This document shows positions 59,891 through 64,000 of a DNA stretch of 64,000 bases, one piece after another; positions within the stretch are counted from its first letter, which is position 1, and every line of letters begins with the position of its first letter. Below the pieces are notes generated by a model. It searched no databases and was not told the DNA's origin. It worked only from the letters and a program-made list of their open reading frames with translations. The DNA is from Agreia sp. Leaf283 (lineage in GTDB: Bacteria; Actinomycetota; Actinomycetes; Actinomycetales; Microbacteriaceae): the NCBI RefSeq assembly GCF_001422485.1, contig NZ_LMNF01000002.1, positions 383,949-447,948 of the forward strand. The letters are read 5' to 3'. A program made the position numbers and the translations under genes.

Positions 59891-60565
59891 GTGCGGCGTC
59901 GTACCGGGCCGTCCTCCGGCCAGAGCAGAGCGCGCACCGCCTTCGGGGTGGCGCGCGTCGTCGTGGCGATCGTGGGCATCGTCGCGCTCGTCGGCGACTA
60001 CCAGTACATCCTCGGGTTCAGCAGTTTCTCCAAAGCCAACTACTTCGCCTACTTCACCAACCAGAGCAACGCCGCCGGAGTCGTGGTGATGTGCCTCGGG
60101 GCCTGGCTCTCGTTCAGGAGACCCGTCGACCCGGGCTGGCTCATGACGGCCCGGATGCTCACGGCCACCTTCACGATCATCTCCGGCATCGTCTTCGGAC
60201 TCATCGTGAGCCAGGCCGGCGACTACAACTACCGGATCGTCGTTCCGTGGTCGAGCCAGCTTCTGCACTTCTGGATTCCGTCGTACGTGATCATCGACTG
60301 GATCCTCGCACCGGGGCGCTCCCCTATCGCTTGGAAGAGAGTCTGGCTCGTGCTCATCTACCCGCTCGTGTGGGGCGGCTTCACCATGATCCGTGGCGCC
60401 ATCGTGGGCTGGTACCCCTACTTCTTCCTCGACCCCGGCCAGGTGTCGGGCCCCCTGGAATTCTCGGCCTACTCCGGTGCCATCCTGCTCGTCATCGTGG
60501 GCCTTGCAGCCGGTCTGATCGCACTCTCGAGGAGAGGCCGTCAGGGCGCAGGAAGGAAAGGCTGA
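59891..60565 (+). CDS. Pr6Pr family membrane protein
   Basis: A 224-aa polytopic protein with about six hydrophobic helices. The YFAYFTNQSNAAGVVVMCLG segment (FTxQSN near residue 55) is the hallmark of the Pr6Pr/FAR-17a-like family; WSSQLLHFWIPSYVIIDWIL, YPLVWGGFTMIRGAIVGWYP and YFFLDPGQVSGPLEF also match. Function unknown. The GTG start at 59891 lies 5 bp after the M20 gene. Its 3' end overlaps the convergent flavin oxidase gene at 60541 by 25 bp. Confidence 0.9.
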   Translation: MRRRTGPSSGQSRARTAFGVARVVVAIVGIVALVGDYQYILGFSSFSKANYFAYFTNQSNAAGVVVMCLGAWLSFRRPVDPGWLMTARMLTATFTIISGIVFGLIVSQAGDYNYRIVVPWSSQLLHFWIPSYVIIDWILAPGRSPIAWKRVWLVLIYPLVWGGFTMIRGAIVGWYPYFFLDPGQVSGPLEFSAYSGAILLVIVGLAAGLIALSRRGRQGAGRKG

Positions 60566-62037
60566 AGGCTCGCCAGGGCGATCTCTCGAACGTCGTCGTC
60601 GCCGAGCTCCGACAGGGCGAGCGCGTCGCTGCCCCCGATGAGCCCGATCAGCACGGCGTCGCCCGTCAGGGGCATGAGGTTGATCCACTGCCGGATCAGG
60701 ATCGAATCCGCGGCATCCGGCGACGGCGACGGCGTGGCGGCGAGCGAGGACGCCTCGTCGGCGCTGAATGGAGGCGAGTCGACCACGAGGCTCCAGAAGG
60801 CGGCCTCCTCGGTCCAGAACGGGGTGTCGTAGCGCAGCCAGACCTTCTCGACGGCTCCCGATCCGAGGGATGCGATCGCGGATCTGTGGGCGAAGGGAAG
60901 CGGGGGGTCGAAGGTGATGGAGTCCGACTGCAGCACGCCGAGCGGCACCGTGACGATCACCCGGTCGACGCGGAGCGATTCGCCGGTGGCCATCTTCAGG
61001 CGAACCGCGTCGTCGTCGACCGACACCTCGCGAACCGGCGTCGACAGGGCCACGTCTGCTCCGTCGAGCAGCTCTGTCACGAGAGGGAGCGCCGAGCCCA
61101 CGACGAAGGCGTCGCCGCCCTCACCCTGCGCCACGTCGTCGAGCCCGTACCAGGTCGACAGCTGTGCCGCGTCTGCGCCGAGCACGGTGACGACCGTGCG
61201 GTCGACGTACTCGGCCACGCGTGACGCGGGGCTGACGCCGATCTCGTCGGCGGTGCCGTCGACCGACGCACCGCCCGAGCCGGCGAGCGATGCGGTGAGG
61301 CTCGGGTCTCTGCTCTGCAACGCACCCCAGGTCACGGCCGCGGCCAGCGCATCCGGTCCGACGGCATTGTCGGGCACGGCATCGGATGCCACGGTCAGCT
61401 GCACGCGCGACGTCGCGTCGACGGCAACGGTCACCACGTCGAGCTCGGCGAGCGAGTCGGTGAGGGTGGAGGAGTCGACGCCACGAACGAATGACGGGCC
61501 GAGGTCGACGACCACCGGCCAGTCTCCGGGCCCATGCGCATCCACCCTTCCGCCCACCCGGTCACGGCCCTCGAACACCAGAACCTCGTAGCCGGCAGCG
61601 ACGAGAGCCTTGGCGGCCGCCGCGCCCGCGAGGCCGGCGCCGATGATGCCGATCCGCTCGCCGTCGGACGCCGTCTGGAGCACGTCGGCGGCGGCCCGCG
61701 CGCCGGAACTCTGGGCACCGTTCAGGGTGCCGGGGAACTCCGTGCTGGTGGCCTCGCCGGCGAAGAAGATCCTGTCGGACACGCTTTCACCGAGCACCTC
61801 CCGTGCGTCGGGAGCCGAACCGGTGGGCAGATAGCTGGTGCTGCCGAGCGAGAACGGGTCTGCCGCCCAGTTGGAGCGGATGAATCCGTTCGGACGGGGA
61901 ACGGCGCCCGGCGTGGGCGTCGGCGTGCCCGCTGCCGTCGTGGGGATGGGCGTGGGCGGACCGACGCAGGCCGTCAGGGCGAGCACGGCGGCTCCCGTCG
62001 CCGCGCCCACCAGAAAGGTGCGACGATCCACGGTCAT
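60541..62037 (-). CDS. Flavin amine oxidase with permuted motif order, Tat/lipoprotein signal
   Basis: A 498-aa FAD protein of the flavin monoamine/polyamine oxidase family. The N-terminus is a twin-arginine lipoprotein signal: DRRTFLVGAATGAAVLALTAC, with RR at 5-6 and the lipobox Cys at 24. Residues 51-120 then hold what is normally the C-terminal motif: NWAADPFSLGS, DRIFFAGEATSTEFPGTLNG and AQSSGARAAADV. Only after that comes the FAD Rossmann motif IGIIGAGLAGAAAAKALVAA (GAGLAG at 133-138) and VFEGRDRVGGRVDAHG. The usual middle (IVTVPLGVLQSDSITFDPPL) is at 361-380 and the protein ends at the LASLQPF helix. This order fits a circular permutation. No Cys for covalent FAD is seen. Substrate is unknown. 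Start ATG at 62035-62037. Confidence 0.87.
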   Translation of the reverse strand: MTVDRRTFLVGAATGAAVLALTACVGPPTPIPTTAAGTPTPTPGAVPRPNGFIRSNWAADPFSLGSTSYLPTGSAPDAREVLGESVSDRIFFAGEATSTEFPGTLNGAQSSGARAAADVLQTASDGERIGIIGAGLAGAAAAKALVAAGYEVLVFEGRDRVGGRVDAHGPGDWPVVVDLGPSFVRGVDSSTLTDSLAELDVVTVAVDATSRVQLTVASDAVPDNAVGPDALAAAVTWGALQSRDPSLTASLAGSGGASVDGTADEIGVSPASRVAEYVDRTVVTVLGADAAQLSTWYGLDDVAQGEGGDAFVVGSALPLVTELLDGADVALSTPVREVSVDDDAVRLKMATGESLRVDRVIVTVPLGVLQSDSITFDPPLPFAHRSAIASLGSGAVEKVWLRYDTPFWTEEAAFWSLVVDSPPFSADEASSLAATPSPSPDAADSILIRQWINLMPLTGDAVLIGLIGGSDALALSELGDDDVREIALASLQPFLPAP

Positions 62038-62686: not shown

Positions 62687-64000
62687 TCAGGGGGTGGGAA
62701 CCACCTCCGGCGGAGACGACACTTCAGCGCCCCGATCACGGGTCGCCTTCTCCGCCGTCGCCGTGATGCGATTCGCCATGCCGTTGAAGATCACGCCGTG
62801 GAACGGGAGGATGGCGAACCAGTACAGACGGCCTCCCAGGCCGCGGGGAAAGAACACGGCGCGCTGGTCGTAGACGGACCCGTGCCCGTCTTCGGCGGCG
62901 GTGGCGCGCATCTCGAGCCAGGCGAGGCCGGGAACCTTCATCTCCGCTCGAAGCCGCAGGAGCGACCCACGGTCGATCGCCTCCACCCTCCAGAAATCGA
63001 GCGCGTCTCCGCTGTGCAGCTCCGTGGCACTGCGACGTCCGCGGCGCAGACCGACGCCGCCGACCAGCTTGTCCATCCAGCCCCGGGCGGCCCACGCGAG
63101 GGGGAATGAATACCACCCGTTGTCGCCCCCGATGCCCTCGATGACCTTCCAGAGCTCGGATGCGCTTGCGCCGCTCCTCCGCTGCTTGACATCGAGATAG
63201 ACCGTGTGACCGGCCCACTCCGGGTCAGAAGGCAGCGGGTCGCTCGCCGCGCCCCGCACGACGGCGTTCTGCCAGCTCGTCTCGACCTCGCCCGCCTTCA
63301 TCTTGCCGAGCGCGAGACGAACGGCACGCCGGTACGAGGTGAGTCCCCCCTCGGGATCGGGGATCAGCTTTCGGATGTCTTCGTCGTGCGCCACGCAGTC
63401 GAACTGCAGCGAGGCGATGATGGGCACGGCGAGAGCACGAGGAATCGGCGTGACGAGGTTCACCCACTGCGATGCGAGCCACGGGGTCATCACCGGCAGC
63501 GCGGCGATCGGCCGTTGCTTCAGGCCCGCCTCGAGGGCGTATCCGTTCATCATCTGGCCGTACCGCAGCACATCCGGCCCGCCGATGTCGAACGCCCGGT
63601 TGACCTCGGACGGCACGGAGGCAGCGTGGACGAGGTAGTAGAGCACGTCGCGCACGGCGATGGGCTGGATACGGTTGCGCACCCAGCGCGGGGCCGGCAT
63701 GTAGGGAAGCACGTCGGTCAGATGGCGCACCATCTCGAACGACGTCGACCCGGAGCCGATGATGACCCCGGCCTGCAGCGCGATGGTGGGCACGCCCGAG
63801 GCGAGCAGGATCTCGCCGACGCGCTTGCGGCTCTCCAGGTGCTCCGACAGGCGGCCCTCCACGGGGTGCAGACCGCCGAGATAGACGATGCGCTTCACGC
63901 CGGAGGCCTTCGCCGCGCGGGCGGTGTTCAGGGCTGCCCGCTCCTCCTGCTCGCGGAAGTGTCCGGGCCTGCCCATGGAGTGCACGAGGTAGTAGAGAAC
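62687..64000 (-). CDS. NAD(P)-binding SDR-like protein with DUF2867 domain, truncated by the window edge
   Basis: At least 437 residues; the frame is still open at the window edge, so the N-terminus with the Rossmann motif lies outside. The visible part begins VLYYLVHSMG, followed by EERAALNTARAAKASGVKRI VYLGG (the NAD(P)-binding half of an atypical SDR), GVPTIALQAGVIIGSGSTSF and ALEAGLKQRPIAALPVMTPW. The C-terminal DUF2867 region has GWYSFPLAWAARGWMDKLVG and DALDFWRVEAIDRGSLLRLR. An in-frame GTG at 63985 is not the start. Function unknown; related proteins resemble complex I NDUFA9-like or NmrA-like regulators. The 45 bp to the GDSL gene suggest a shared transcript. Confidence 0.88.
   Translation of the reverse strand, partial: VLYYLVHSMGRPGHFREQEERAALNTARAAKASGVKRIVYLGGLHPVEGRLSEHLESRKRVGEILLASGVPTIALQAGVIIGSGSTSFEMVRHLTDVLPYMPAPRWVRNRIQPIAVRDVLYYLVHAASVPSEVNRAFDIGGPDVLRYGQMMNGYALEAGLKQRPIAALPVMTPWLASQWVNLVTPIPRALAVPIIASLQFDCVAHDEDIRKLIPDPEGGLTSYRRAVRLALGKMKAGEVETSWQNAVVRGAASDPLPSDPEWAGHTVYLDVKQRRSGASASELWKVIEGIGGDNGWYSFPLAWAARGWMDKLVGGVGLRRGRRSATELHSGDALDFWRVEAIDRGSLLRLRAEMKVPGLAWLEMRATAAEDGHGSVYDQRAVFFPRGLGGRLYWFAILPFHGVIFNGMANRITATAEKATRDRGAEVSSPPEVVPTP

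Follow-up and report, generated by a model that had tools for sequence, protein, structure and literature searches.

The locus studied here raises the question of whether a gene of Agreia sp. Leaf283 encodes a natural circular permutant of a flavin amine oxidase, in which the C-terminal FAD block of ordinary members now stands at the front of the chain. The gene lies in the window, that is, the whole stretch of 64,000 nucleotides that was analysed. The single continuous frame described in the earlier note was borne out, and its strand, which that note did not give, is minus; the plus-strand reading of the same interval is interrupted by two stops. The frame encodes 498 residues, closes at the stop at 60541-60543 and ends in the LASLQPF helix (...LASLQPFLPAP, residue 498). 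The residues quoted in the note are correct in the translation: Cys24, NWAADPFSLGS at 56-66, FFAGEAT at 91-97 and GxGxxG at 133-138. The features of the gene and of its convergent neighbour are collected in Table 1.

Table 1. Features of the permuted oxidase gene and the adjoining gene, in window coordinates
Feature	Coordinates	Strand	Basis
Circularly permuted flavin amine oxidoreductase, 498 aa	60541..62037	-	ORF, Pfam
Residues 1-24: twin-arginine-like signal (DRRTFLVG), lipobox to Cys24	61966..62037	-	Pattern only
Residues 25-48: Pro/Thr-rich linker	61894..61965	-	Sequence; pLDDT <50 through residue 41
Residues 49-119: W..DPF..G...FFAGEAT...GT..GA..SG block, C-terminal in ordinary members	61681..61893	-	PF01593 positions 368-443
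Residues 120-127: new junction, old C-terminal helix to old N-terminal strand	61657..61680	-	Block matches
Residues 133-138: GxGxxG dinucleotide (FAD) motif, start of the body (PF01593 1-368)	61624..61641	-	Sequence, Pfam
Lys398, aligned with the flavin-N5 lysine of the superfamily	60844..60846	-	Alignment
Pr6Pr family membrane protein, convergent with the oxidase	59891..60565	+	NF038065

We consider that the locus as a whole is very probably best explained by a circular permutant of the PF01593 superfamily (MAO/polyamine oxidase/LSD1 type), this reading including a closed fold and a lipid-anchored flavoenzyme. Its sequence-level features are the block order, the single copies of the blocks, the intact FAD-motif residues, the conservation, and a signal-like N-terminus with a lipobox. 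In such an enzyme, the old C-terminal FAD block would begin the mature protein, about 8 residues ahead of the GxGxxG Rossmann unit, and the new termini would fall in the loop that normally connects the last helix of the substrate domain to the W..DP strand. A well-studied flavoenzyme fold, that of MAO, polyamine oxidase and LSD1, would thus have a natural and widely inherited circular permutant. The parts of which we are least sure are the substrate and the partnership of the oxidase with the Pr6Pr protein.

The permutation is visible in the profile match itself. PF01593 matches the whole protein (E 4e-56, 191.6 bits, with a curated cut-off of 19.8) in two stretches, model positions 1-368 aligning with the C-terminal part and 368-443 with the N-terminal block, which amounts to one cut and one new join. 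Since the one stretch ends and the other begins at the same model position, no long part of the domain is lost or doubled. The FAD-binding block with its W..DP, F.AGE and GT..GA..SG motifs (residues 49-119) stands ahead of the Rossmann and substrate parts in this protein, as it does in 57 further distinct proteins. The alignment with KDM1B (4gu0) displays the same swapped pieces: query residues 126-166, 295-428 and 45-119 fall on chain residues 336-376, 512-644 and 699-773, respectively, and the order that is usual in the three KDM1B chains aligned is rotated in the query. With a profile of 14 permuted sequences, positions 126-473 cover residues 4-378 of the maize polyamine oxidase chain (1b37); because the alignment runs from chain residue 4, the maize chain starts where the body of the permuted protein starts. 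The joint is also regular in length, with 8 residues between the block matches in 43 of the 58 permuted proteins and a range of 6 to 12. Profile-based annotation would take genes of this kind for ordinary or partial members of the superfamily, and no NCBIfam model matched the oxidase at its cut-off among the 25 of 29 matches listed.

Block order was scored with separate profiles for the three blocks (N, M and C), and copies were merged only when they were identical from the first through the last block. The search for homologues in both orders that the earlier note had proposed covered 163 loci and gave 58 distinct proteins in the order C-N-M and 74 in the order N-M-C, the latter made up of 72 canonical proteins and 2 with a split N block; another five are partial (three M-C, two N-M). 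The two with a split block (L062 and L080) are canonical relatives in which the Rossmann block was matched in two pieces, N-N-M-C. An order that recurs in 58 distinct proteins is inherited rather than due to chance. An assembly error, a concern already raised in the note, or a chance fusion in a single genome therefore has a negligible probability: we found no point in its support, and it has to face full-length matches in at least seven of the eight genomes of the genus, counting that of the window, as well as the recurrence of the order. Circular permutants usually arise by duplication followed by trimming, and this route speaks for a partial tandem duplication, in which an extra C block was added in front while the original remained at the back or nearby. 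Against it, the block profiles detected a second C block in none of the 132 proteins having all three blocks, in keeping with the claim of the note that each block is present once, and we regard such a duplication as very improbable. An earlier duplication of which nothing remains does not compete with the permutation. With single blocks, the PF01593 match split at 368, 58 proteins alike and a predicted fold of good confidence, the circular permutation that the note had called likely is supported.

The permuted proteins occur in Agreia, the host genus, in many more Microbacteriaceae, in a few Actinomycetota outside this family and in Alphaproteobacteria. The genome counts that follow are lower bounds, as few candidates per genome were scored in most of the searches. 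The matches in Agreia share 67-100% identity; one genome of the genus (G007; 96% complete, 260 contigs, 2.8 Mb) has no oxidase match, which may be a loss or a gap. In the Microbacteriaceae, the oxidase was matched at 1e-30 in at least 136 of 398 genomes, which represent at least 32 of the 85 genera. Of these matches, 132 begin at query residue 5 or before and continue into the Rossmann part, and are read as permuted; all 30 of them that were examined as loci are permuted, and the remaining four begin at residue 83 or later. Outside the family, a search at the level of the taxonomic order (248 genomes, some of them Microbacteriaceae) found at least four permuted (L130-L133) and two canonical (L134, L135) proteins. 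The phylum search matched at least 9 of 296 genomes, seven being permuted (G000, G085, G112, G147, G1253, G1349, G1304) and two canonical (L162, L163). The class to which the Acidimicrobiales genome belongs gave at least 7 matches in 148 genomes, with four permuted (L043/L152, L153-L155), two canonical (L156, L158) and one cut by a contig end (L157), and the class of Nitratireductor at least 4 in 385, with permuted L045/L137, L149 and L150 and canonical L151. In the contig scan, among the best 80 of 119 relatives, 13 (L033-L045) are permuted, while L046-L112 are canonical wherever all three blocks were found, the rest being partial. One of two matching Haloarcula plasmid records seemed permuted by query coverage, and both proved canonical by block order.

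Structure prediction is consistent with a chain that folds in spite of its rotated connections. The best of five AlphaFold models, built with 14 permuted sequences, has a pLDDT of 79.8 and a pTM of 0.81 (pLDDT of the others, 74.8 to 63.9). The moved block is predicted at good confidence, with ten-residue pLDDT means of 77-97 across residues 41-120; the segments below 50 are residues 1-41, 161-163, 167-170, 302-306 and 427-444. In the model, strands at 51-54, 67-69 and 90-92 and a helix at 105-122 are followed by a strand at 128-132. The best Foldseek match in the PDB is LSD2 (4hsu; E 1.7e-20, TMq 0.57, 394 columns), followed by LSD1; a bacterial monoamine oxidase, putrescine oxidase and maize polyamine oxidase rank lower. 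The TM-scores with LSD2 (0.57-0.59 of the query) presumably come from a sequence-order alignment, which cannot place the moved block. A model of the alphaproteobacterial permutant from 11 sequences is weak (pLDDT 64.6, pTM 0.69), and its best matches are LSD2, polyamine oxidase and LSD1. The predicted fold is therefore LSD2-like, and we infer that the chain would close into the usual two-domain fold and bind FAD as usual. The permutant offers a direct test of which chain connections are needed for FAD binding and folding, and a natural engineering scaffold with new termini. The last of the low-confidence segments (residues 427-444; 60706-60759, minus strand) is a Pro/Ser/Thr/Ala-rich insert inside the substrate domain that, in the 14-row alignment, only the six Agreia rows have.

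The protein shares its blocks, FAD motifs and predicted fold with the PF01593 superfamily (MAO A/B, polyamine, spermine and putrescine oxidases), in which the C block usually comes last, whereas here the C-terminal FAD block comes first. Judged on sequence, it would be a member of the superfamily by descent that departs from the canonical block order, and hence a variant rather than a canonical member. Among solved structures, the oxidase domains of KDM1B/LSD2 and KDM1A/LSD1 are its best sequence and fold matches. However, it differs from LSD1 and LSD2 in its signal-like N-terminus and rotated order; SWIRM is not among the 19 Pfam families listed for the permuted protein at E up to 1, and there is no reason to suppose histone substrates. 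Relatives in Nocardia (L046), Pseudanabaena (L053) and on Haloarcula plasmids (L164, L165) have all three blocks and, unlike the permuted protein, the usual order N-M-C. Several canonical relatives of this type, among 14 listed, carry by eye a Tat-like N-terminus ahead of GxGxxG. MurB belongs to another fold family. The FAD protein LucY (MurB) has been engineered into circular permutants, which shows that an FAD protein can tolerate permutation (PMC4408115); those permutants are man-made, whereas the permuted flavin amine oxidase is natural. The NicA2/Pnao-type FAO dehydrogenases are Tat-exported members of the same superfamily according to PMC12224317, the main text of which has no word starting with "permut". 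The literature matches listed, among which subscription journals are thinly covered, include no description of a permuted flavin amine oxidase; this is weak evidence from partial sources, and within that scope the suggestion of a conserved but undescribed architecture stands, with 58 distinct proteins behind it.

How often the permutation arose is less clear than that it occurred. For the trees, the moved block was set back to the canonical order, for alignment only. The permuted rows form three groups among canonical relatives: group A contains the Microbacteriaceae and three copies from the class of the Acidimicrobiales genome, group B the Alphaproteobacteria and the Acidimicrobiales copy L043, and group C L130-L133 and L161. 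Because canonical rows separate these groups, the quick tree of 114 rows needs 3 changes of order and the careful tree of 48 rows needs 2, and a single permuted group appears in 0% of 200 bootstrap trees. These results argue for two or three independent permutations near the same cut point. On the other hand, the AU test does not reject one permuted group (27 vs 21 rows; log-likelihood 14.5 lower, p-AU 0.073), the starred branches of both trees force only one change, and the alike junction lengths also fit one origin with transfer. The sequences may fit either a single origin with later transfer or two or three separate ones, and we hold independent permutations to be possible, while leaning against them.

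The permuted proteins agree in the residues counted in the FAD motifs and differ in two other columns. All 58 permuted rows keep the three GxGxxG glycines, E156, R164 and E95, the glutamate of FFAGE, and the E...R.GG.. Rossmann signature (E156, R160, GGR162-164) is invariant together with GxGxxG in the 14-row alignment. The column of Lys398, counted over 130 rows, holds Lys in KDM1B, and we take it to be equivalent to the flavin-N5 lysine of MAO-B and LSD1. This lysine is present in the window protein by alignment, in all 14 permuted rows outside the Microbacteriaceae (3/3 other clade-A, 6/6 clade-B and 5/5 clade-C rows) and in 49 of the 72 canonical rows (R in 16, H in 7). It is kept in 15 of the 44 Microbacteriaceae permuted rows and absent from 29, with T in 18. 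A second column, that of the cage residue (T67 in the window), is Tyr in 63 of 72 canonical rows and in all nine rows of clade B and of the non-Microbacteriaceae part of clade A, and Trp in four of the five clade-C rows. Among the 44 Microbacteriaceae rows, at least 38 have another residue than Tyr, those listed being F (13), T (9), V (5), A (4), Q (4) and H (3). Thus in this clade the lysine and cage-Tyr columns vary while the counted FAD-motif residues stay fixed.

The loss of the lysine from most Microbacteriaceae copies and a mostly non-Tyr cage column make classical amine oxidation doubtful for this clade. The same two columns speak for a further reading, in which the Microbacteriaceae permutants are decaying or repurposed: amine oxidation would be lost, the fold and FAD retained, and the protein would serve as a lipoprotein that binds FAD or as some other redox enzyme. 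Yet all 44 rows keep the counted FAD-motif residues, the matches extend over at least 32 genera of the family (a few may be canonical), the Agreia copy retains Lys398 and every other permuted row has the lysine, and we consider decay or repurposing unlikely. PMC12224317 describes the flavin-N5 lysine as almost universal among members of the superfamily and treats it as an O2 determinant that matters for the reaction with oxygen; a low O2 rate, it suggests, may be explained by one loss of the residue. On that role, lysine-less copies would be expected to be dehydrogenases. For a flavoenzyme that is permuted and still redox-active, most Microbacteriaceae copies are therefore more likely dehydrogenases passing electrons to another acceptor, whereas the Agreia copy may still use O2 because it keeps the lysine; by sequence, it could be an oxidase or a dehydrogenase.

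The new N-terminus follows an export-like segment. The stretch from RRTFLVG to LTAC24 resembles, by pattern only, a twin-arginine signal with a lipobox Cys, and a simple lipobox pattern is found in 49 of the 58 permuted proteins. The nine exceptions are L042, L044, L045, L149, L150 and L130-L133, so that five of the six proteins in clade B and four of the five in clade C lack the pattern. As the divergent L130-L133 have no lipobox pattern before the block, permutation may not always be tied to export. Provided that the fold closes with FAD, the mature enzyme would be lipid-anchored and extracytoplasmic and would oxidise an amine-like substrate.

At its 3' end, the oxidase gene overlaps the convergent Pr6Pr gene by 25 bp. 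A Pr6Pr match lies convergent at this end in 44 of 44 distinct Microbacteriaceae loci, its start lying -11 to 209 bases from where the oxidase frame ends; at the 14 permuted loci outside the family, whose 3' flanks measure 1.3-5 kb, none was detected, nor in the 74 loci of canonical order. Pr6Pr genes occur in at least 168 of the 199 Microbacteriaceae genomes searched, so co-occurrence says little, and it is the fixed convergent position that is the clue. This constant neighbour is a concrete candidate partner, whereas the NicA2/Pnao-type enzymes have a cytochrome c partner, according to PMC12224317. We treat the partnership as a lead, as convergent genes need not act together. A wider proposal is improbable in our view: repeated permutation at one place (in the Microbacteriaceae, in the Alphaproteobacteria/Acidimicrobiales and in a third actinobacterial line) would mark a permissive, selected cut site, and the Microbacteriaceae protein would be a lysine-poor, lipid-anchored dehydrogenase paired with Pr6Pr, its new N-terminus holding the FAD face to the membrane.

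The Pr6Pr protein itself matches little. The window copy hits no Pfam family at E up to 1, eight homologues gave three weak single-member Pfam matches (best 0.013), the PDB search returned nothing below E 0.1, and a full-text literature search found no paper on it. A conceivable likeness to AIG1-type membrane hydrolases received no support from the Pfam and PDB searches. The columns that do not vary among the eight homologues include T56, H126 and R168. Five loci (L013, L014, L016, L018 and L040) have a second Pr6Pr match elsewhere, besides the convergent one. Farther along the window, an ORF at 62687-64000 on the minus strand is open at the window edge; its N-terminal part is SDR-like by eye, and DUF2867 matches residues 257-403 of the scanned protein.
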